Below, one piece after another: positions 28,409-39,168 of a stretch of 64,000 nucleotides of DNA. Positions within the stretch are counted from its first letter, which is position 1. Each line of letters opens with the position of its first letter. Source of the stretch: Alloalcanivorax gelatiniphagus (GTDB taxonomy: Bacteria; Pseudomonadota; Gammaproteobacteria; Pseudomonadales; Alcanivoracaceae); the NCBI RefSeq assembly GCF_005938655.1, contig NZ_VCQT01000044.1, forward strand, positions 186,001 to 250,000, written 5' to 3'. Below the pieces are notes generated by a model, which saw only the letters and a program-made list of their open reading frames with translations, ran no database searches and was not told the origin of the DNA. The position numbers and the translations under genes were made by a program.

Positions 28409-29533
28409 CTATCGCGGCAGATCCGGAATCTTGAAGTACGGTGTTTTTTGGTTGTCCAGGCTGTGCAGAAAAGCTTCCAGGTCGGCGAGATCGGTCTGGC
28501 TCAGCCGAAGCGGTTTGAGCAACGGGCTGGTCACCGGAAACAACGGATCATCCTGCTCGGCGCCCTTGGGGCGTGGATGCACGCCGCCGGCGTTATAGAG
28601 GGAGAGGATGCCGTGCATCTTTGTGAACTTGCCGTTGTGCATCCAGGGCGCGGTGGCCATCACGTTGCGCAGGCCCGGGGTCTTGAAGGCGCCCATATCC
28701 TGCTTGCGGCCGGTGGCGGCATAACGGCCCTGGTCCTCGTTTTTGCGACCGTAGAAATGCAGCCCCAGGTTGTGGAACTGACCGTCGGTGAACAACGGGC
28801 CGTGGTGGCAGTTCATGCAGCCGGCGCTGGTGCGGAACAGATCCAGGCCACGAATCTCCGCTTCGCTGAGGGCGTCCGCATCGCCGCCGTAAAACAGGTC
28901 GAAGCGGGTGGGGCCGGTGACCACCGTGGTCAGATAGGCGGCCAGGGCGTCGGCCAGCCGCTCCGGGTTCAGGGTGGCTTCGCCAAAGGCATCGCGGACC
29001 AGGGGGGCGTAACCGGGCACCGCGTTGATCGATGCCACCGCCCCGTCCGGCGTGCCGTGCATCTCCTCCGGATTGGCGATGGGCATCAGCACCTGCTCGC
29101 GCAGGGTGGCGGCGCGGCCGTCCCAGAACTGGGCCTGCTGAAAGGCCGCGTTGGCGACGCTGGGCGTATTGCGCCGGCCCCGTTGACGGTCGTGGCCGTA
29201 GGGCACCTGGCGGCCATCCGCCCAGCCCCATTCCGGATCGTGGCAGGAGGCACAGGCGATCTGTCCGGAACCGGACAGGCGCGGATCGAAGAACAGGGTT
29301 TCGCCCAGGTCGCGCAGCGCCCGGTCCACTTTCGGCGTGGGCGGCAGCGGCCCCAGCGGCCGCGCGTCCACACTGGCGTCCACCTGGATCGCCGGCCAGC
29401 AGGCCGGCCCGGCGCGGTAACGGTCCAGACGATCCGCGTTGGCATCGGGGCAGGCGTCGGCGGCCAACGCCAAGGCCGGTAACATCGCACCGAGCAAACC
29501 ACCCACCGCCGCCCACCGCAACCTCAACGTCAT
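28409..29533 (-). CDS. Diheme cytochrome c peroxidase/MauG-like protein
   Basis: The 374-residue exported protein (signal ending ALALAAD) has two heme-binding motifs, CASCH (about residue 95) and CMNCH (about 240), in the CcpA/MauG layout, plus the RNTPSVANA and PGLRNVMATAPWMHNG segments typical of the superfamily. Such enzymes reduce peroxide or oxidatively modify a protein partner. It is last in a coupled three-gene operon: its ATG overlaps the receptor stop by 4 bp. Context suggests it acts on the co-encoded lipoprotein or an imported metal ligand (inference). Confidence 0.9.
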   Translation of the reverse strand: MTLRLRWAAVGGLLGAMLPALALAADACPDANADRLDRYRAGPACWPAIQVDASVDARPLGPLPPTPKVDRALRDLGETLFFDPRLSGSGQIACASCHDPEWGWADGRQVPYGHDRQRGRRNTPSVANAAFQQAQFWDGRAATLREQVLMPIANPEEMHGTPDGAVASINAVPGYAPLVRDAFGEATLNPERLADALAAYLTTVVTGPTRFDLFYGGDADALSEAEIRGLDLFRTSAGCMNCHHGPLFTDGQFHNLGLHFYGRKNEDQGRYAATGRKQDMGAFKTPGLRNVMATAPWMHNGKFTKMHGILSLYNAGGVHPRPKGAEQDDPLFPVTSPLLKPLRLSQTDLADLEAFLHSLDNQKTPYFKIPDLPR

Positions 29534-32004
29534 AGCCGCACCTTCATACCCAGCCAGTAATTGCGGCCAATCTCGATGCCGGAATCATAGGTGTTGGGGT
29601 TACCGTCATCGGCGGTGTAGGTGCGCGCGTTGAACACATTGTTGATCTGCGCGTCCAGCACCAGACCCGGCTTACGGGTGACCTGCCAGGTCAGTTTCAG
29701 ATTGCTGATCCAGGTGGCCGGCCGCTGCCGGTCCTCGTACACCGGCAGGGATTCGGTCACCGTCTGGCCATTCGGCAAGGTAATGGTTTCGCCCTTTTGC
29801 GAGCGGCCGGAGTTGGCGATATAGCGTTGCTCATCCCGCCAGGTGGTGACCAGGCTGGCGCGCAGGTTGCGATGGAGATCCGCCGCCAGGCTGACGGTGG
29901 CGACCAGAGGGCGGTTGTAGTCATAGCGGACCTGCTCCAGTTCGCCCTGGCGCATGCGCTTGCCCCGGTAATAGATGTATTCATCGGCGAGCGGATTATC
30001 GGCGCTTACGTCGTAGTCCGAGTTGGAGGTTTCCGCCTCCGACCAGGTGGTGCTCAGCCCCAGATGGTAACGGCCGAAGGTGCGGTACCAGGCCAGGGAA
30101 ATGCCCTGGTAACGACTGCTGCCGTCGTTGCTGAGCCGGTACAGTTCGAAGCCATCTTCCTGGATGTCCGTGCGTTGCTGGGAGAGTTCGTCGCGGCCTT
30201 CCCGGTGCACGTATTTCAGATCAACAATGCCGCCCAGGAATGCCTGCTTCAGGCCCACGGAAAGTTCGTCGCTGTAGGGCGTATTCAGGTCCGAGAACAC
30301 ATAGCGGGTGCGGGCGCCGCCGGAATCGCTTTCCCAGTCGCCCACCACGTTGGCCACGGAACCCCGGTATTCCGTGTAGTGGGGCTGGCGTGCTTCGCGC
30401 AGTTTGTAGGAAAGCAGCGGCGCGCCGTAGTAACGGTTGGCGCCGAAGGTCAGGTTGGTGCGGCCATTGCCGAACATATCGAAGGCGCCGCGAAAGCGCG
30501 GGGAAAAATTAAGGTTGCCGAGAAAATCATCGTAATCGTAGCGGGCACCGAACACCGTCTTGACCCGCCCCCAATGGGTAGAGGCTTCGGTGTAGGCGGC
30601 GGCCTGGGCCAGGCCCACGTCCAGGTCGTGGGCCGCGTACACATTGCGGGTGGAAAAGAATTGCTCGCCGTCCACGCAATCCAGGCTGACGCCCCGGCAT
30701 TGGATCTCCGTGTTGACGATGCCGTTCTGGTAAATGTAGGAGGTGGCCGGCCGGTCCTCGATCACCCGCACATAACTCAGGTCGACGCCGTACTCCAGGT
30801 TCCAGCGGCGCCCCAGCCAGCGGACCGGCTGGCGCTGGGCGTCCAAGCCGAAGGTGTAGCGTTGCTGCTCGCGGTCCAGGTCACCGAAGCCGCCCTGGCG
30901 ACTGAAAGCCAGATCATTTTCGATGCCCCAGTGGCGGCTCGGGCTGTTTTGCCAGTTGAAAAAGTGTTGCGGGGAGCGACGACTGTTCTCGCTTAACGAC
31001 ACCGCCAGGCGGGCGGTGATGTCGTGGCGGTCGGTGAGCCAGGACAGCTTGCCGTTGCCGGTTAGGCCACCGCCGCGCACGCTGAAGTCACTGTCCTTGG
31101 CGTCCTTGATAAAGTACTCACCTTTGTAGGGCGCCACCGCCAGCCCCAGGTCCAGCCAGCCCTGGTCCCATACCGGCGTGTAGAAGCGGCCGCTAAGCCC
31201 CAGGTTCTCCTGTTCCTGATCCTTGATCTCGCCCAGCGACACATCCGGGTTGCGCGAATAGGAGCGGGTGGCACCCAGATAAACGCCGCGCCCACCGGCC
31301 AGCGGCTGGTCCACGCTGATGCCCATCCGTTCGCGCTTGAAGGAGTCCGGCTCCGGCGGCTCCTTGGGGTTCTCGGCGTCGTCCGGCACATGGTGGAACA
31401 CCCGGTAGTCCACCCAATCGGAACGGGTGGTGCTGTAGGACAGATTGACCCGCCGCGGCCCCTGGCCGGCACGGCGGGTTTTCATGTCCACCACGCCGCC
31501 GGTGAAATTACCGAAGCGCGCCGGCACGTTGCTGTCGTAGACGGTCACCGATTCCAGCATGTCCTCGTCAATAAACAGCGACTGCTCATGGCCGGGCACG
31601 TCGGTGATCGAGTTGGGCTTGTCCGCCAGTGGATCGAGCCGGCTGTTGATGTCCACGCCATCCAGCTGGAAGTTATTCTCGTAGGCACGGCCGCCGGAAA
31701 TGGAAATCGATGCCGGTTTCAGATCGTAGAGGCTTTCCGGTTTATAACGATCCTCGCTGAACTGAATATTGGGCAACACCTCCAGGGCTTCCGTAACGCT
31801 GCCGTTGGCGCTGCCATAGTCGTCCAGCATGTGCCGGTCCAGCCGGTAGCTGCCCTCCGGCTCGGTGGTCACCGGCTGGGCGGCGCCGTCGCCGTGCACA
31901 TAGACCGGATTGAGGGTTTCCACGTCGTCCTCGGCGTGGGCGGAGAGCACGAAAAAAAACAGGCCGGCGGTCAGTGCCGCCGGCCAAAAAGAGTAGTCAG
32001 TCAT
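29530..32004 (-). CDS. TonB-dependent outer-membrane receptor
   Basis: The 824-residue receptor has a signal peptide (helix LTAGLFFFVLSAHAED), a TonB-box-like region (ETLNPVYVHG), a plug domain (MLDDYGSANGSVTEALEVL ... GVDINSRLDPL) and a 22-strand barrel ending in aromatic WLGMKVRL. There is no N-terminal signalling extension. It starts two bases after the lipoprotein stop and overlaps the MauG-like gene. A Fur-like site precedes the operon. The substrate is not predictable from sequence; an iron or other metal complex is likely. Confidence 0.93.
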   Translation of the reverse strand: MTDYSFWPAALTAGLFFFVLSAHAEDDVETLNPVYVHGDGAAQPVTTEPEGSYRLDRHMLDDYGSANGSVTEALEVLPNIQFSEDRYKPESLYDLKPASISISGGRAYENNFQLDGVDINSRLDPLADKPNSITDVPGHEQSLFIDEDMLESVTVYDSNVPARFGNFTGGVVDMKTRRAGQGPRRVNLSYSTTRSDWVDYRVFHHVPDDAENPKEPPEPDSFKRERMGISVDQPLAGGRGVYLGATRSYSRNPDVSLGEIKDQEQENLGLSGRFYTPVWDQGWLDLGLAVAPYKGEYFIKDAKDSDFSVRGGGLTGNGKLSWLTDRHDITARLAVSLSENSRRSPQHFFNWQNSPSRHWGIENDLAFSRQGGFGDLDREQQRYTFGLDAQRQPVRWLGRRWNLEYGVDLSYVRVIEDRPATSYIYQNGIVNTEIQCRGVSLDCVDGEQFFSTRNVYAAHDLDVGLAQAAAYTEASTHWGRVKTVFGARYDYDDFLGNLNFSPRFRGAFDMFGNGRTNLTFGANRYYGAPLLSYKLREARQPHYTEYRGSVANVVGDWESDSGGARTRYVFSDLNTPYSDELSVGLKQAFLGGIVDLKYVHREGRDELSQQRTDIQEDGFELYRLSNDGSSRYQGISLAWYRTFGRYHLGLSTTWSEAETSNSDYDVSADNPLADEYIYYRGKRMRQGELEQVRYDYNRPLVATVSLAADLHRNLRASLVTTWRDEQRYIANSGRSQKGETITLPNGQTVTESLPVYEDRQRPATWISNLKLTWQVTRKPGLVLDAQINNVFNARTYTADDGNPNTYDSGIEIGRNYWLGMKVRL

Positions 32005-32006
32005 GA

Positions 32007-35000
32007 TCAGCCATCACAGGACGCGCAGAAGGGCGTGGAATCCTCATCGTCCGTGATGCCGTCACCGTCCAGATCGTTATCCAGCTGCAAAGCACTGGCC
32101 GCGATGTCCTCCGCGTCGACCCCGAGGTTGAAAAAGTCCGGGCGGCCATCGCCATCCGTATCCCGTACCGCGATGGCGCCCTTGGCGAAATCGTTTTCAC
32201 CGGTCATTGCCGTGGCGATACTTTGCAGCATCAGATTGCGGTCGTTGTTGGAGAGGCCATCCTTCTCGGTGAGCGCCACCGCCTCGTCGTAGTAGCGGGC
32301 TTTGGCCAGCACCAGCACGGCCTGATTCAGATAGGTCAGCCGTGAGCTGTCGGACAGCTGCGCGTCGGCCAGGTTGGCCACGCCCAGCTGGTTACCGTTA
32401 CCCAGAATCAGATCCCGCGCCGCCGCCCGGGCGTCCGCCACGTTTTGCTGGTCGGTGACGTTTAGTGCACCGGCACGCAGAGCCATGCGGCCCGCCTGTT
32501 CGGCGACCTGGTTCAGGCTGGTGGCCAACGACAGGCCACCGGACATGGCCGAGCTGCGGGTGCTGTCGTTGGTGGCGCCCGCCGCTTCCTGGAAGTAGCG
32601 GGTTTGCGCTTCGCGGCCGTAGTCCAGCGCCAGGCCCAGGTTGTCGTTGTCCAGCGACAGAGAGATCAACCGTAGTAATGCTTTGTCGTAATCCCTTCCC
32701 AACATGGCGGAGATCTCACTTTCCGCCCGGGCAATAGTGGCGCTCCCCTCGGCAATCAGCCCCAGGCGATTCTGGTAGATGGCAATCCCGGTAAGAATTG
32801 CAAATCTCTCATCCTTGCCTGTGATACTTTTCAGAATCTCATCCGCAACGGAGGCACAATTGCCCATCCAGCTGCGGGCGGTATCAATGTCGCCCCAATT
32901 TTCCGCGAACTGAACCAGTCTCAAACAACCGTTACCGAGCAAGGCGTTGTAATCTTGCACGTACGTATCCCGATATTCGTCGGATAGATAGAAGTTCCAG
33001 GCAGCGCCTCTTACCTGATCGCCAAGCAAAACATAGCCATTTCTGTAGAGAGCCTCCGCGAGCCCGTGCGCGGTACCCGACTGATCAATCAGGTACCCCA
33101 GATATTCCTCCGGCTCTGGGTAGTTCCGCCGCAAGCCGTCGAGAGCCCCTTGCAGATCTCCTTCCACGACAGCCTCAAACGCTATTCCGACATTGATGTT
33201 CTGCAAAGCATCTTCAATCTCGCGAGGATCCGTAATGGTTTCTTCTACCTGTTGAAGGTAACGGTCCACTTGATCGGTTGCGACGTAGTACGCAGCCATC
33301 CTTTCCACGTAGACATCCGTCTGCTCCAGGTTACATGGCGTTAAATTTCTGGTTTGCTCGAAAAGATCGATGATATTTTCGAGCTCCTGGTCCGCACCTA
33401 ACGCGTAGTAGTAACCGGCCGAATAGGTAAGATAGAAAGTACGCAGCTTATAGTGCGTGCAACCACTTCTGACCTGGTATCCGGTGCCGAGAACAAATCG
33501 AGTGAAAAGATCGACACTCTGTATGGCATCATTCAGAAAGGGCTCTACAAGCTCCTGTTCAACCGCTTTTTCTACTGATAATTCAGCGTTATCACGTATT
33601 GCCGTCAGCAGCTTTCCGTAAACCGACTGATAAGGGCGCCCCTCATAGAGGGAGACGTAATCGATCACGTTATCGATGGCCCTCTGTGAAGCTTCAATCT
33701 CTCCCAGTCGCCGGTAGTCCAGCACCAGCGAGTTGTAAAGATCGGCTTCCGGGGCAGTAAGGTTTTCCAATCCCTTTGCCTCGATAATTCCGTCCAACTC
33801 GGAGAGGGAAGTATCGACCATCGCTTTCGCTTCGTTATGCGAACCCGTCTCGATCAGCCTGTACGCGATCCTTTGCGCCGTCCTCGCGCGCAGGAAAGGC
33901 TGGAAGACGCGGGTCCTTAGAACAGTTTTTGCTTCGCCAACTTGGCCGGCGAAGGCCAACCCTTCGGCGATTTCTTCATACACCGGGTCGAGGATAAGGT
34001 CGTCGAGCACGCCATCAAACAGCCGTTCGGCGCGATGGAACGGGGACAGATCGGAGGCGTAGAAGTATTCCCGGCGGGCGTCGCTGTCCATGCCGAGTTT
34101 TTCCGCGTTGGTCAGCGGAATGCGGTGGTCCAGGGCGCGCAGGCCGGTGATGCGGGCGATGTCACTGTCGCCGCCGAGGCCGGCGGGGACGGTGAAGCCG
34201 CTTTGCGACAGTGCGGCCGGGTCAAGCTGGTAGCTTTGCAGCACATAGCGCATCAGGTTACGAATCTGGGCGCCGCCGGCGGGAACGCCGGCGCCACCGT
34301 TGGCGCTGATCAGGGTGTCGGCCAGGGCGGCGATGTTGGCCTGGCTGGTCTCGTCGTCGGTGTTTTGCCCGAACGCATCGCGCAGGTAGAGGGTGATGCC
34401 CTGGCGCACCGCGATGCGTTTGGCGGCGGCCACCACCGCGTCGGCGCCCTGGCCCGGGGCGGCTTCGGCCACCGCCTGGAATTGCTGTTCCAGCCCGATG
34501 ATGCGCTGGCGGCTGGCCTCGGTAAGTTTGGGATCGGTGGCCAGCCATTCACGGGCGGCGTCCAGGTCGCCGGTGTCGCGCAGGGCGTCGACCAGCCAGG
34601 TCATGGGCCGGCTTTCCCGGTTAAGGGCCACGCCCAGCAGCGTGAGCCGCAGGGACTGGCGTTGCAGGTCGCCGTCGGTGGCCGGGTCGTCCAGCACCCG
34701 GGTGGCGTCCAGGCCGAGCCAGCCGGCCACGGTCTGGCCGGCGCTGTCGAGATCGCTGCCGTCGTCCACCAGCGCCATCACCAGGGTACTCACCGGCGTG
34801 GCCAGGCCGTTGCCGCCGGACACCGGCCCCACCAGGGTCAGCCCGGTGAAGTCCTGCCCGGTTTGCGAATCCACGCCACCCTGGGCCACCACCCGGGCAC
34901 CGCTCAGGTTGGCGCCGGAGGAGACGGAGAACCGGAAGCCGCCGTTGGCGTCGCTGCGCACCGGTACCGCCAGGGCGTTACCGCTGGCGCTTTGCAGCTT

Positions 35001-35174
35001 GACCAACGCCCCGGCAATGCCGGGATCGGTGACGCGGCCGGACACGCCGGCTGAGCCGCTTGCGCCTCCGTCCCCCCCGCCACTGCTACCCCCACCGCCG
35101 CCGCAGGCGGCCAGCAGGGCAAGAAAAAGGGCCACGGCCACGGGCCGTGCCCAGCGCGTGCATCGCTGATACAT
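32007..35174 (-). CDS. 1055-residue surface lipoprotein with Ig-like, helical-repeat and Ca-binding tail regions
   Basis: Lipoprotein (signal ends ALLAAC, then a Gly/Ser-rich linker). Residues about 45-115 resemble a carboxypeptidase-regulatory/Ig-like fold (SGRVTDPGIAGALVKLQ). Residues 180-980 are mostly helical, with TPR-like repeats. The C-terminus has thrombospondin type 3/EF-like acidic loops (DTDGDGRPDFF and DNDLDGDGITDDEDS) and a final CASCDG. The central part (about 32.65-33.95 kb) is much less GC-rich than both ends, so the gene is mosaic. First gene of the operon with receptor and MauG-like peroxidase. No named family is recognised. Confidence 0.85.
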   Translation of the reverse strand: MYQRCTRWARPVAVALFLALLAACGGGGGSSGGGDGGASGSAGVSGRVTDPGIAGALVKLQSASGNALAVPVRSDANGGFRFSVSSGANLSGARVVAQGGVDSQTGQDFTGLTLVGPVSGGNGLATPVSTLVMALVDDGSDLDSAGQTVAGWLGLDATRVLDDPATDGDLQRQSLRLTLLGVALNRESRPMTWLVDALRDTGDLDAAREWLATDPKLTEASRQRIIGLEQQFQAVAEAAPGQGADAVVAAAKRIAVRQGITLYLRDAFGQNTDDETSQANIAALADTLISANGGAGVPAGGAQIRNLMRYVLQSYQLDPAALSQSGFTVPAGLGGDSDIARITGLRALDHRIPLTNAEKLGMDSDARREYFYASDLSPFHRAERLFDGVLDDLILDPVYEEIAEGLAFAGQVGEAKTVLRTRVFQPFLRARTAQRIAYRLIETGSHNEAKAMVDTSLSELDGIIEAKGLENLTAPEADLYNSLVLDYRRLGEIEASQRAIDNVIDYVSLYEGRPYQSVYGKLLTAIRDNAELSVEKAVEQELVEPFLNDAIQSVDLFTRFVLGTGYQVRSGCTHYKLRTFYLTYSAGYYYALGADQELENIIDLFEQTRNLTPCNLEQTDVYVERMAAYYVATDQVDRYLQQVEETITDPREIEDALQNINVGIAFEAVVEGDLQGALDGLRRNYPEPEEYLGYLIDQSGTAHGLAEALYRNGYVLLGDQVRGAAWNFYLSDEYRDTYVQDYNALLGNGCLRLVQFAENWGDIDTARSWMGNCASVADEILKSITGKDERFAILTGIAIYQNRLGLIAEGSATIARAESEISAMLGRDYDKALLRLISLSLDNDNLGLALDYGREAQTRYFQEAAGATNDSTRSSAMSGGLSLATSLNQVAEQAGRMALRAGALNVTDQQNVADARAAARDLILGNGNQLGVANLADAQLSDSSRLTYLNQAVLVLAKARYYDEAVALTEKDGLSNNDRNLMLQSIATAMTGENDFAKGAIAVRDTDGDGRPDFFNLGVDAEDIAASALQLDNDLDGDGITDDEDSTPFCASCDG

Positions 35175-35218
35175 GACGGGTTCCCCCAGGTTCGCTTCGG
35201 TGTAAGGACGCCGGGGAA

Positions 35219-35249
35219 GATAATCTAAGTGATAATGATTCGCAATATT
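35219..35249 (-). promoter_or_regulatory. Fur-box-like tandem site upstream of the lipoprotein/TonB/MauG operon
   Basis: The 19-mer GATAATGATTCGCAATATT (from 35231) matches the Fur consensus GATAATGATAATCATTATC at 14 of 19 positions by eye. Another GATAAT hexamer lies 12 bases upstream (35219), which fits tandem Fur dimers. It sits 45-75 bp before the lipoprotein start and overlaps the last two bases of the araC-type gene. Repression by Fe-Fur is the natural reading. Confidence 0.65.
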
Positions 35250-36177
35250 ATGTAGGAAGTTGACCGCCGGCCAGATGCTCCCGGCGGTAGTCCCGGGGCG
35301 CCATGCCCATCACTTTCTTGAACAGGCGCGAGAAGTAGTAGGGGTCGTCGTGGCCCAGTTGCTGGGCGATGTCGGCCACGCTCAGGTCGGTGATGTCGAG
35401 CAGGTAGCAGGCGCGGCTGACCTTGAGATGCTGAAAGGCCTGCATCGGGGTCTGGCCGGTCTGGCGTTTGTATTCGCGGATGAAGTGGTAGCGGGACAGG
35501 TCGCTGGTGGCGGCCACCAGGGTGTCCAGGTCCACCCGTTCGTGCAGCCGCAAGCGCAGCCAGGCCTGCACCCGGGCCACGTCCAGGGCGTCGCTGCGCT
35601 CCTGGCGCTGGCGGCGCATCAGGGCCATGTAGGAGAGCAGGCTTTTCAGCAGGTTGGCGGCGTAGATCAGGTGGTCGCCGCGAAAGCGGGTCACGGTGAC
35701 CAGCAGGGCGTCCAGGTCTTCGGTAAGGCGCGGGTGATGGCCGACATGGGCGGCAAAGGCGTCCGGCCGGTCCAGCACCGCGTCGAAATAGTCGTCCACC
35801 CGGTCGCCGCCCAGGTGGGCCCAGTAGATGGTCCAGGGGTCGTCCGGGTTGGCCCGGTAGCGGTGCGGGCGGCCCTCACGGAACAGCAGCACGTCGCCGG
35901 CGCTGACCGGCCGCCAGCGGCCCTCCAGGCGCGCCTCCCCGGACCCGGCCAGGCAATAGATCAACAGGTGGTCCCGGGGGGCCCGGCGATCCATGTGATG
36001 GCCGGCGGCGCTGGGGTAAAAACCGGCGCCGAGGGGCAGGCAGTCACGGCACAGCGGGTGCGTCGCCAGCTCCGCCACCAGGCTCTGGGGAATCACCACC
36101 CGCCGGCCGCTTTCCGGCAGCGGCCACTGGGAGGTTTCCACCTGTGAACCGGTTCCGCTCATAGCAATTCTGTCCAT
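35248..36177 (-). CDS. mmsR: AraC-family regulator, probable MmsR
   Basis: The 309-residue activator has an N-terminal cupin-like sensor (residues 60-150; YPSAAGHHMDRR, VLLFREGRPHRY) and a C-terminal double helix-turn-helix with the AraC signature LSVADIAQQLGHDDPYYFSRLFKKVMG followed by PRDYRR. It is divergent from the GntP-mmsA-acyl-CoA dehydrogenase-mmsB operon, as mmsR is from mmsAB in P. aeruginosa, where it activates those genes in response to valine metabolites. The symbol rests on that context and the family. Confidence 0.82.
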   Translation of the reverse strand: MDRIAMSGTGSQVETSQWPLPESGRRVVIPQSLVAELATHPLCRDCLPLGAGFYPSAAGHHMDRRAPRDHLLIYCLAGSGEARLEGRWRPVSAGDVLLFREGRPHRYRANPDDPWTIYWAHLGGDRVDDYFDAVLDRPDAFAAHVGHHPRLTEDLDALLVTVTRFRGDHLIYAANLLKSLLSYMALMRRQRQERSDALDVARVQAWLRLRLHERVDLDTLVAATSDLSRYHFIREYKRQTGQTPMQAFQHLKVSRACYLLDITDLSVADIAQQLGHDDPYYFSRLFKKVMGMAPRDYRREHLAGGQLPT

Positions 36178-36303
36178 CCCCCATCAATTAAAGCCATCTT
36201 ATCGCCCATTGGGCTGTGGTACACCATAGCAATAATTGAAAAACGCGATGGTGCCGAACCTGCCTCATCGGAAGAACAACAACAGGATAAACAGGGAGAG
36301 CTC

Positions 36304-37614
36304 ATGCTTGTAGCCAGCTTCCTCGGGCTGTTCGCCGGCCTGGCGTTACTGGTGGTGCTGACCATGCGAGGCGTCAACATCATCATCTCCGCGGTGCTGT
36401 GCGCCATGCTGGTGGCGGTGTGCAGCGGCCTGCCACTGGACCAGGCCATGCTGGAGAGTTACATGGCCGGTTTCACCGGCTTCTTCACCGCCTGGTTTCC
36501 GGCCATTCTGCTGGGCGCCATCTTCGGCCAGCTGATGGACGACAGCGGCGCCGCCAAGGCCATCGCCCGCCAGTCCAGCCATTGGTTTGGCGAGAAGCGC
36601 GCCATCATGGCGGTGGTGGGCGCCTCGGCGATCCTCACCTACGGCGGGGTCAGCGTGTTCGTGGTCGGTTTCAGCGTTTACCCCATCGCCTTCGAGTTGT
36701 TCAAGGCGGCCAACCTGCCCCACCGCTTTATTCCCGGCGCCATGGTGTTCGGGTCGATCTCGTTCACCATGACCTCCCCCGGGTCGCCGGAAGTACAGAA
36801 CCTGATTCCCACCGAGCATTTCGGCACCACCGCGGTGGCCGGCGGCATGATCGGGGTGATCTGCGCGCTGACCATTCTGGTGCTGGGCGCCTGGGCAATC
36901 CGCCACCGGGTGCGCCGGGCGGTGAACGCCGGCGAGACCTTCGACCCGCCGGCGGCGGCGGTGCGCCAGCACGGCCGGGACGACGGCGTGGCGGTGCCCA
37001 CCTGGGCGGCCCTGTTGCCCCTGCTGGTGCTGGTGGGCGGTTTCAACCTGCTGTCGCTGGCCCTGGGCATGCGCCCGGTGGAGGCCCTGCTGGTGGCCAT
37101 GGGCGCCAGCCTGCTGCTCGGCTTCGTGCTGTTCCGCCGTCCTCTTCATCAGCGCGCCCGCACCCTGGGCACCGGCGCCGACAACGCGCTGGTGGCCACC
37201 GCCAATACCTGCGCGGTGGTGGGCTTCGGCGCGGTGGCGGCACTGACGCCGGCGTTCAAGGAAATCGTGGCGGTGCTCACCGGCCTGCCCGGGCTGGAAT
37301 ACGCCGGCCTGGCCATGGCGGTGACGGTGATCGCCGGCATCACCGGCTCCGCCTCCGGCGGCCTGGGCATCGCCCTGCCGATCCTGGCGCCGATCTACCA
37401 GGGCATGGGCCTGGACAACGGCGCCATGCACCGGATTTCGGCGCTGGCTTCCGGCGGTCTGGATTCGCTGCCGCACAACGGCTACGTGGTCACCACCATC
37501 CGCGCGGTCTGCAAGGAAACCCACCAGCGGGCCTACCCGATGGTGTTCATCGCCAGTGTGCTGGTGCCCTCGGTGGTGCTGGTATTGGCGGTGGTTCTGT
37601 ATACGCTGGTGTAA
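36304..37614 (+). CDS. GntP-family permease in the valine-degradation operon
   Basis: The 436-residue integral membrane protein has about 12 helices. GntP hallmarks are LTYGGVSVFVVGFSVYP, FTMTSPGSPEVQNLIPT and ITGSASGGLGIALPI. The family carries gluconate, hydroxybutyrate and other organic acids by H+ symport. Because it heads the mmsA-acyl-CoA dehydrogenase-mmsB unit and faces an MmsR-like regulator, a branched C4 acid such as 3-hydroxyisobutyrate is a plausible substrate (inference). A GGGAGAG ribosome site precedes the ATG. Confidence 0.88.
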   Translation: MLVASFLGLFAGLALLVVLTMRGVNIIISAVLCAMLVAVCSGLPLDQAMLESYMAGFTGFFTAWFPAILLGAIFGQLMDDSGAAKAIARQSSHWFGEKRAIMAVVGASAILTYGGVSVFVVGFSVYPIAFELFKAANLPHRFIPGAMVFGSISFTMTSPGSPEVQNLIPTEHFGTTAVAGGMIGVICALTILVLGAWAIRHRVRRAVNAGETFDPPAAAVRQHGRDDGVAVPTWAALLPLLVLVGGFNLLSLALGMRPVEALLVAMGASLLLGFVLFRRPLHQRARTLGTGADNALVATANTCAVVGFGAVAALTPAFKEIVAVLTGLPGLEYAGLAMAVTVIAGITGSASGGLGIALPILAPIYQGMGLDNGAMHRISALASGGLDSLPHNGYVVTTIRAVCKETHQRAYPMVFIASVLVPSVVLVLAVVLYTLV

Positions 37615-37662
37615 CGACGCCGGCCTCCGAATACGGCCAAAAAAATGCAAGGAGAAAGCGTT

Positions 37663-39168
37663 ATGAGCAACCGACTTCCGCAACTGATTCAGGGCGAGTT
37701 CCGACAAAGCGCCACCGACACCTGGATCCCCGTGACCAACCCGGCCAGCGGCGAAGTGCTGTGCGAAGCGCCGGCGGCCACCGCCGACGAAATGGAGCAG
37801 GCCATCGCCGCCGCCAAGGCCGCCTTTCTGGAATGGCGTGACGTGCCGGTGTCCGAGCGTGCCCGGCTGATGCTGCGCTATCAGCATCTGCTCAAGGAGC
37901 GCCATGACGACATCGCCAAGGTCCTGGCCAAGGAAACCGGCAAGGTATTCGCCGACGCCAAGGGCGACGTGTGGCGGGGCATTGAAGTGGTGGAACACGC
38001 CGCCAACATCGCCTCGTTGATGATGGGCGAAACGGTGGAGAACGTGGCCCGTGGCATCGACAGCCATTCCTGGACCCAGCCCCTGGGCGTGTGCGCCGGT
38101 ATCACCCCGTTCAACTTCCCGGCGATGATTCCGCTGTGGATGTTCCCCATGGCCATCGCCTGCGGCAACAGCTTCGTGCTCAAGCCCTCGGAACAGGACC
38201 CGATGACCCCCAACCTGCTGGCCGAGCTGTTCCTGGAGGCCGGCGCGCCGAAGAACCTTCTGCAGGTGGTGCACGGTGGCAAGACCCAGGTGGACACCCT
38301 GCTCACCCATGCGGAGATCAAGGCGGTGTCGTTCGTCGGCTCGGTGCCGGTGGGCCAGCACGTGTACCGCACCGCCACCGACCATCTGAAGCGCGCCCAG
38401 TGTTTCGCCGGCGCCAAGAACCACATGGTAGTGATGCCCGACGCCCGCAAGGACCAGGTGCTCAGCAACCTGGTGGGTTCCGCCTGCGGTGCCGCCGGCC
38501 AGCGTTGCATGGCGATCAGCGTGGCGGTGTTCGTGGGTGATTCGAAACAATGGCTGGACGAACTCAAGGACCAGTTCGCGGCGGTGCGCCCGGGCGCCTG
38601 GGACGACGACCAGGCCGCCTATGGCCCGCAGATCAGCGCCAAGGCCCGGGAGCGCATTCTCACCCTGATCCAACAGGGCAAGGAAGAAGGCGCCACCTGC
38701 CTGCTGGACGGCTCCGAGTGCAGCGTGGAGGGCTTGCCGGATGGCCACTGGGTGGGCCCCACCCTGTTCTCCGATGTGACGCCCCAAATGGCGCTGTATC
38801 GGGAGGAAATCTTCGGGCCGGTGCTGTGCTGCATGTGCGTGGACACCCTCGACGAAGCCATCGAGCTGGTCAACAACAGCCCCTATGGCAACGGCACCTC
38901 GATCTTCACCGCCAACGGCGCGGCGGCGCGCAAGTTCCGCCATGAGATCGAAGTGGGCCAGGTGGGCATCAACGTGCCGATTCCGGTGCCGCTACCGTTC
39001 TTCAGCTTTACCGGCTGGAAGGGTTCCTTCTACGGTGACCAGCACGCCTACGGCAAGCAGGCGGTGCGCTTCTACACCGAGACCAAGACGGTCACCAGCC
39101 GCTGGTTCGACGACGATATTCCGGACGCCACCCATGGCGGGCCGAACATGACCATTAACCTGAAATGA
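37663..39168 (+). CDS. mmsA: Methylmalonate-semialdehyde dehydrogenase (acylating)
   Basis: CoA-dependent aldehyde dehydrogenase that converts methylmalonate semialdehyde to propionyl-CoA in valine catabolism. 501 residues from [13 protein letters not shown], with AAGGAG upstream; an ATG six codons earlier lacks spacing. The Rossmann region holds [21 protein letters not shown]; the catalytic Cys is in GAAGQRCMA, as in other MmsA. The C-terminal half has the family's [14 protein letters not shown]. Order within the operon and the AraC-type regulator support the assignment. Confidence 0.95.

Follow-up and report, generated by a model that had tools for sequence, protein, structure and literature searches.

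The three-gene operon considered here lies on the minus strand of a 64,000-nucleotide stretch of the Alloalcanivorax gelatiniphagus genome (contig NZ_VCQT01000044.1, positions 186,001 to 250,000; referred to as the window) and encodes, in this order, a giant lipoprotein of 1055 amino acids (LIPO), a TonB-dependent transporter (TBDT) of 824 amino acids and a di-haem protein of 374 amino acids. This operon is real, conserved and in part already described; it is a variant of the Fus-type importers. To the published picture our analysis adds the MauG-type tyrosine of the enzymes, the finding that these enzymes share none of the 79 inspected loci with an M16 protease, and a family of tetratricopeptide repeat (TPR)-solenoid lipoproteins that is tied to the TBDT. 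The reading that we prefer, and to which we assign a probability of about 0.5, is that of an iron-regulated Fus-type importer in which LIPO would act as a capture protein or lid for the FusA-type TBDT and the di-haem enzyme as an oxidative processing module. The three genes are packed at junctions of 2-4 bp, as an earlier interpretation made from the letters of the window (the sequence-only reading) had claimed: LIPO and the TBDT gene are separated by a 2-bp gap, and the TBDT and di-haem genes overlap by 4 bp.

When a profile built from eight TBDTs was compared with the PDB (177635 distinct sequences), E-values of 0.01 or below were obtained only for FusA (4zgv; 3.4e-111) and for entry 6ofr (3.8e-80), which we take to be YddB. 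The TonB receptor of the sequence-only reading is thus closer to FusA than to other TBDTs and, as judged from this profile match, belongs to the FusA (ferredoxin receptor) family, a family of iron-protein receptors. Its Pfam Plug domain scored 23.8 bits, just below the cut-off of 23.9. In genome G011, the TBDT of a second such triad is split across two reading frames (L031:9823-12329).

The di-haem protein possesses an N-terminus that looks like a signal peptide by eye, and its two CXXCH motifs together with the MauG-type axial residue Tyr313 bear out its previous description as MauG-like. Tyr313 aligns with Tyr294 of MauG (a position counted from the printed alignment range). To place the window in a broader context, we scanned genome contigs with the TBDT profile and obtained 79 loci from the best 80 of 267 relative-encoding stretches; contig ends truncate several of these loci, and six of them repeat contigs of a set of 57 relatives. 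Among the 38 di-haem proteins scored in these loci with an aligning profile built from Tyr-bearing members, the axial column holds Tyr in all 36 enzymes above 250 bits, as it does in the window's own. The two proteins below 250 bits (L074_2398 and L102_17125) read IMG and LMA at this column, without a Tyr; their profile match ends before the column, and the residues were read from the sequence. The Met in both motifs is presumably the haem ligand, as in Met-ligated peroxidases, and both proteins adjoin neither a TBDT nor LIPO. Of the 36 Tyr-bearing enzymes, 30 are encoded within 300 bp of a TBDT gene; the remaining six have a LIPO gene at a distance of 170 bp or less. In classical bacterial cytochrome c peroxidases the axial residue is Met or His and not Tyr (PMC7567364), and the window enzyme is not of this kind. 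The near-infrared signature of bis-Fe(IV) in MauG and BthA depends on the axial Tyr (PMC6405878). Two loci (L074:4395-6623 and L129:10776-13169) encode a di-haem enzyme with a long N-terminal extension, which resembles Lcl_C in L074 (39.8 bits) and scored 29.3 bits, below the cut-off of 34.9, in L129; the enzyme of L039 (4224-6461) is equally long.

The distribution of the genes among the 79 FusA-family loci indicates which parts of the system travel together. LIPO is present in 24 loci, a di-haem enzyme (>250 bits) in 35 and an M16 protease in 19, the latter being counted as a single BLAST cluster with one member verified against Pfam. LIPO and the enzyme occur together in 12 loci; the enzyme is found without LIPO in 23 of its 35 loci (three with a contig that ends upstream). 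In 12 of the 24 LIPO loci, some on short contigs, the enzyme is missing, and only three of these 12 (L050, L051, L052) have an M16 gene. Not one of the 79 loci contains both the enzyme and an M16 gene; L102 possesses an M16 gene plus its unlinked Met-type peroxidase. Fisher's test for this exclusion gave 6e-7 in the 85-row tree set when relatedness was ignored. On a tree computed with a quick method (LG+G4), the presence of LIPO changes three times (77 rows), compared with 17 changes of the enzyme state (85 rows); therefore, the processing gene appears to be swapped while the LIPO-TBDT pair stays. Those LIPO loci that lack the enzyme come from Desulfuromonadales, other Desulfobacterota-type bacteria, a record titled Deltaproteobacteria and Deferribacteraceae. 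The Desulfuromonadales, Desulfobacterota-type and Deferribacteraceae groups are mostly anaerobic, a distribution that would fit a peroxide-dependent enzyme and that is confounded with ancestry. FusA-family clusters of Deferribacteraceae and Desulfobacterota-type bacteria (L050-L056, L073) also contain, in varying sets, genes for an ABC ATPase, DUF4857, ExbB, TonB and M16 proteins (families named from cluster representatives). In 10 Desulfuromonadales-type loci (L043, L044, L046, L047, L049, L054, L057-L060) the FusA-family TBDT adjoins a protein of an LVIVD beta-propeller cluster, two members of which were checked against Pfam, and histidine kinase genes are often present.

LIPO itself was searched for in 57 relatives and in two larger genome sets, one of the order (390) and one of the class (369); the three sets overlap, and 13 LIPO genes besides that of the window were counted after short matches had been dropped. 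LIPO adjoins a FusA-family TBDT in all 13 loci, and a di-haem gene is present in 11 of them; in L130 an M16 protease gene takes its place, and L135 has neither gene within the 18 kb fetched. Hence, of the co-occurrence of all three genes that had been proposed as a check, the LIPO-TBDT pairing and, in large part, its link to the di-haem gene held up, but a fixed threesome did not, given the 23 of 35 enzyme loci without LIPO and the 12 of 24 LIPO loci without the enzyme. The order and strand of the genes vary among LIPO loci, and in Marinobacter daepoensis (L040:1150-12472) LIPO, di-haem, LIPO, di-haem and TBDT genes stand in a row. LIPO is rare: only two clear new loci were found in the 369 class genomes (the class tally of four comprises these two, the window's own and one match to the N-terminus only).

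The LIPO protein starts with a lipobox (LAAC) whose lipid-site Cys24, followed by Gly at position +2, is found in 26 of 27 rows of our alignment of full-length members (17 enzyme-linked, 10 not). Lipoproteins without Asp at +2 are sorted to the outer membrane, and LIPO has both the lipobox Cys and a +2 residue other than Asp that mark an outer-membrane lipoprotein. An AlphaFold2 model computed with 20 sequences (mean predicted local distance difference test score 87.6; predicted template modelling score 0.83) comprises a signal peptide and a Gly/Ser tether, both of low confidence, followed by a predicted beta-sandwich (residues 42-125), helices (127-343), a helical solenoid (364-991) and the acidic tail. 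Foldseek matched this model with generic TPR scaffolds of the PDB only, at query-length template modelling (TM) scores of 0.19 or below among the 50 matches listed, and an identification of LIPO by its fold was therefore discarded. No Pfam or NCBIfam family covers LIPO in a scan of 20 members: individual Pfam TPR families match at most four of the 20 each, TSP_3 matches one, and an NCBIfam anchoring-domain model matches eight (best E-value 7.5e-4; residues 6-37 of the window protein). SusD is absent among the 25 families matched by these 20 members at E<=0.1. As modelled, LIPO represents a predicted TPR-solenoid lipoprotein family without a name in Pfam or NCBIfam.

Two traits that the sequence-only reading had ascribed to LIPO were recovered. 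Its acidic, Ca-binding-like loops (D1005-D1013 and D1032-D1045) are among the best-conserved columns, with D1005 and D1009 in all 27 rows and D1007 in 26. The mosaic character resides in residues 401-850, approximately: the GC content of this part is 0.47-0.59 compared to 0.61-0.74 in the other 50-residue blocks, and relative to the LIPO of the close relative L025 amino-acid identity drops from 74-94% in the flanks (100% over the last five residues) to 44-58% in the center, with four-fold-site identities of 73-76 and 32-36%, respectively. No block of comparably low amino-acid identity occurs in the TBDT (80-97% per 75 residues). With low GC content and low four-fold-site identity confined to the center, these data suggest that recombination has exchanged the LIPO solenoid, in the manner of recognition proteins. 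Cys750 and Cys773 are both present in 16 of the 17 enzyme-linked rows and in one of the 10 others, and a C-terminal CxxC behind the acidic loops (window positions 32007-32036) in nine of 17 and none of 10. The CxxC was nevertheless dismissed as a strict marker for the enzyme, as the LIPO of L135, a locus without a di-haem gene in the 18 kb fetched, ends in CxxC as well.

The tandem GATAAT/Fur-like sites noted earlier upstream of LIPO were located as two hexamers (35219-35224 and 35231-35236) and a Fur-box-like 19-mer (35231-35249) that matches 15 of 19 positions of the Fur consensus; this consensus was used for all box scores, which express sequence match only. The 19-mer is the top site of the 64 kb, followed by four sites at 13/19. 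A box of at least 15/19 arose in three of 2000 Markov simulations of positions 35150-35270, and a simulation on 35175-35247, a stretch that misses 2 bp of the Fur-like site, gave 0.059. The site is retained in the two closest relatives (L024, 15/19; L025, 14/19). Boxes of 14-16/19 were found in 10 of 35 scanned upstream stretches (L024, L025, L026 in front of the di-haem gene, L029, L036, L039, L040 in front of the first LIPO gene, L074, L128 and L130), and in two differently ordered loci it is the di-haem gene that the top box precedes (L026, 16/19; L029, 15/19). The 10 stretches taken from enzyme-only loci all scored below 14/19, although the 13/19 site of L066 was still rare in its own simulations. 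The operon is probably under Fur control, as far as this can be judged from the match of its upstream sequence.

From these data we infer the following course of events. Iron limitation would relieve repression by Fur, and LIPO, the TBDT and the enzyme would be made. LIPO, as a lipid-anchored TPR solenoid, may capture cargo at the cell surface or serve as a lid on the TBDT; variation and exchange in LIPO concern its TPR solenoid, as expected for a recognition module. The FusA-family TBDT would then bring a protein or peptide that bears iron across the outer membrane, and the periplasmic di-haem enzyme would oxidize the imported cargo with peroxide, leading to release of the iron; it would thereby fill the slot of the M16 protease FusC in Pectobacterium. 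Several observations weigh against this reading. Grinter et al. propose a reduction, not an oxidation (PMC6793856); our analysis suggests oxidation instead, because the enzyme carries the MauG-type axial Tyr. As to Fur, 25 of the 35 upstream stretches scored below 14/19, including those of L027, L028, L031, L037, L048 and L129, as did all seven stretches from LIPO loci without the enzyme (Desulfobacterota-type and Deferribacteraceae records). The exclusion between enzyme and M16 protease is no longer significant when independent pairs are compared: the M16 state was opposite in 3.7 of 10 pairs on average and never changed the same way, with a median p of 0.125. The di-haem gene is opposite in strand to LIPO and the TBDT gene in L026, L036, L037, L039, L074, L128 and L129, and in M. 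daepoensis each of the two LIPO genes is followed by a di-haem gene of its own, a pairing that fits either lipoprotein maturation or cargo-matched enzymes.

The sequence-only reading had assigned to LIPO the role of the enzyme's substrate, so that the MauG-type protein would oxidize LIPO residues during maturation and create a metal-binding site. The di-haem gene accompanies LIPO in 11 of 13 loci, six of 36 enzymes stand beside LIPO and not the TBDT, M. daepoensis has its two LIPO-enzyme pairs, and the enzyme is of the Tyr type; MbnP/MbnH and CorA/CorB offer a precedent (PMC3621798). Moreover, Tyr519 (15/17 enzyme-linked rows versus 4/10 others) and Tyr630 (14/17 versus 1/10) are commoner in LIPO proteins linked to the enzyme. 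Maturation of a Trp residue was rejected, since Trp stays below 60% in every column of the 17 enzyme-linked rows; Tyr370 is invariant in all 27 rows, enzyme-linked or not, and the separate occurrence of the two genes in so many of the 79 loci speaks against a substrate role. This proposal is weakened by these findings, and we now consider it improbable. Modification of the TBDT itself by the di-haem enzyme is the least likely of the alternatives: the short distance between the two genes in 30 of 36 cases and the five Trp columns kept in more than 70% of 84 TBDT rows would suit it, but enzyme-linked and M16-linked TBDTs could not be told apart by any W, Y, C, H or M column (>70% versus <35%), and enzyme-specific residues in the TBDT were discarded as a candidate at these thresholds.

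LIPO might also face the periplasm and act as a TPR scaffold that brings the di-haem or M16 enzyme to the TBDT, as LbcA does for CtpA. The CtpA-LbcA complex (8sxf) is among the Foldseek TPR-scaffold matches of LIPO, at a low TM-score, and LIPO is found with both types of enzyme; yet half of its 24 loci are devoid of the di-haem enzyme and just three of those hold an M16 gene, and the long Gly/Ser tether, the Ca-loop tail and the exchanged center would better suit a location outside, which makes a scaffold unlikely in our view. Finally, the di-haem protein could be a plain peroxidase that shields iron uptake from peroxide and acts on neither cargo nor LIPO, given that the Tyr-ligated relative BthA turns H2O2 into water (PMC6405878) and that LIPO loci from Desulfuromonadales and Deferribacteraceae yielded no such enzyme. 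We give this idea little weight: it leaves the close linkage to a single transporter family and the lack of any locus shared with M16 genes (0/79) without a reason, and the two unlinked peroxidases of L074 and L102 are Met-type, so that loci keep a separate kind. Oxidative processing of cargo by a Fus-type importer stays our preferred reading. The coordinates of the features are collected in Table 1.

Table 1. Features of the operon (positions refer to the 64,000-nucleotide window).
Feature	Position	Strand	Characteristics or basis
LIPO, giant lipoprotein with predicted TPR solenoid	32007..35174	-	lipobox, Gly/Ser tether, beta-sandwich, helical domain, TPR solenoid, acidic tail ending CASCDG
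Central part of LIPO with mosaic character and low GC (residues 401-850, approximately), inside the TPR solenoid	32625..33974	-	GC content and identity blocks
Conserved acidic C-terminal loops of LIPO, residues 1005-1055	32007..32162	-	alignment of 27 rows
TBDT, FusA (ferredoxin receptor) family	29530..32004	-	PDB profile search
Di-haem enzyme with MauG-type axial Tyr313 and two CXXCH motifs (residues 94 and 239)	28409..29533	-	profile/alignment
Two GATAAT hexamers and Fur-box-like 19-mer	35219..35249	.	15/19 to Fur consensus

The operon is adjoined by a gene for an AraC-type regulator (35248-36177), which together with a permease-like and a dehydrogenase-like gene occupies window positions 35248-39168. 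This group appears to resemble the mmsR/mmsA genes of valine catabolism. The AraC-type gene was not retained as a part of the system, as it was found in only two of the eight relatives' loci searched (L024, L025); we take it to be the regulator of the adjacent catabolic genes.

Among known systems, Fus (FusA/FusC) is the closest. At loci of FusA homologues that lack the protease FusC, Grinter et al. (2019; PMC6793856) have reported "cytochrome c peroxidase" genes. The replacement of FusC by a peroxidase-family gene is consequently already in print and this kind of locus is known, which corrects the sequence-only reading, in which the system could not be matched to a described one. As in Fus, a FusA-family TBDT gene adjoins the gene of a processing enzyme, and the substitution of a di-haem peroxidase-family gene for FusC is shared with the loci described there; the window differs in the TPR lipoprotein family tied to the TBDT and in a Tyr-ligated, MauG-type enzyme that suggests oxidation, where the paper suggests reduction (PMC6793856). 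The sole PF00675 match in the genome of the window lies on another contig (C40, 461-aa frame), and a linked FusC as in Fus is hence lacking. The word lipoprotein does not occur in the main text of PMC6793856, whose gene contexts (Fig 2, S1 Table) may list the gene. A literature search, with subscription papers mostly outside its scope, gave no description of the LIPO/TBDT/di-haem triad among the matches listed; in their accessible text, two papers on iron in Pseudomonas contain no peroxidase-type terms, one on Alcanivorax borkumensis has three unrelated passages with such terms, and papers on Caulobacter and Leptospira offer no match to the triad. Import of whole proteins is known for only a few transporters, the FusA type among them. 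Should a MauG-type enzyme indeed stand in for the protease, high-valent di-haem chemistry would have a new use, marine bacteria such as Alloalcanivorax and Marinobacter could draw iron from proteins that are left uncut, and annotations as "cytochrome c peroxidase" beside FusA-type TonB receptors would gain a testable role.

MbnP/MbnH and CorA/CorB likewise pair a MauG-like di-haem enzyme with an adjacent partner protein, in some cases close to a TBDT (PMC3621798), and the adjoining partner gene is what the window has in common with them. It differs in an enzyme that stays below the MbnH cut-off (TIGR04039; 193.4 bits, cut-off 362.85) and in LIPO, which is not MbnP (no match to TIGR04052 at E<=1). 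The genome has only two CCP_MauG genes, the second of which directly follows a genuine MbnP gene (201.5 bits, cut-off 140) on contig C18 (G000:C18:11804-13324; L141:5586-7877). Membership in MbnP/MbnH was rejected on the failed cut-offs and this separate pair, and the claim that the partner is not MbnP and the system distinct from MbnP/MbnH thus stood. With MauG and BthA the enzyme shares the axial Tyr at the position of MauG Tyr294 and two c-haem motifs; it differs from MauG in missing the curated cut-off (TIGR03791; 217.5 bits, cut-off 443.85), and a scan that took in the AraC gene besides the three proteins of the operon found no methylamine dehydrogenase. RagAB imports peptides, with RagB, the product of a 1.5-kb gene, as a lid of four TPRs (PMC11817032). 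RagAB/SusCD and the window have in common the gene of a TPR-built lipoprotein next to that of its TBDT; they differ in that LIPO has no SusD match and the TBDT is FusA-like, and LIPO is about twice as large as RagB, with a beta-sandwich and Ca-loop ends. One tentative idea, which we regard as rather doubtful, is that the system is the proteobacterial equivalent of the RagAB "pedal bin" and imports proteins or peptides that bear iron, with a giant TPR lid on a FusA-type barrel, a swappable periplasmic module and iron release by MauG-type bis-Fe(IV) chemistry in place of proteolysis; as a capture or lid protein anchored by a lipid and built from TPRs, the LIPO family would extend this type of partner beyond the Bacteroidota.

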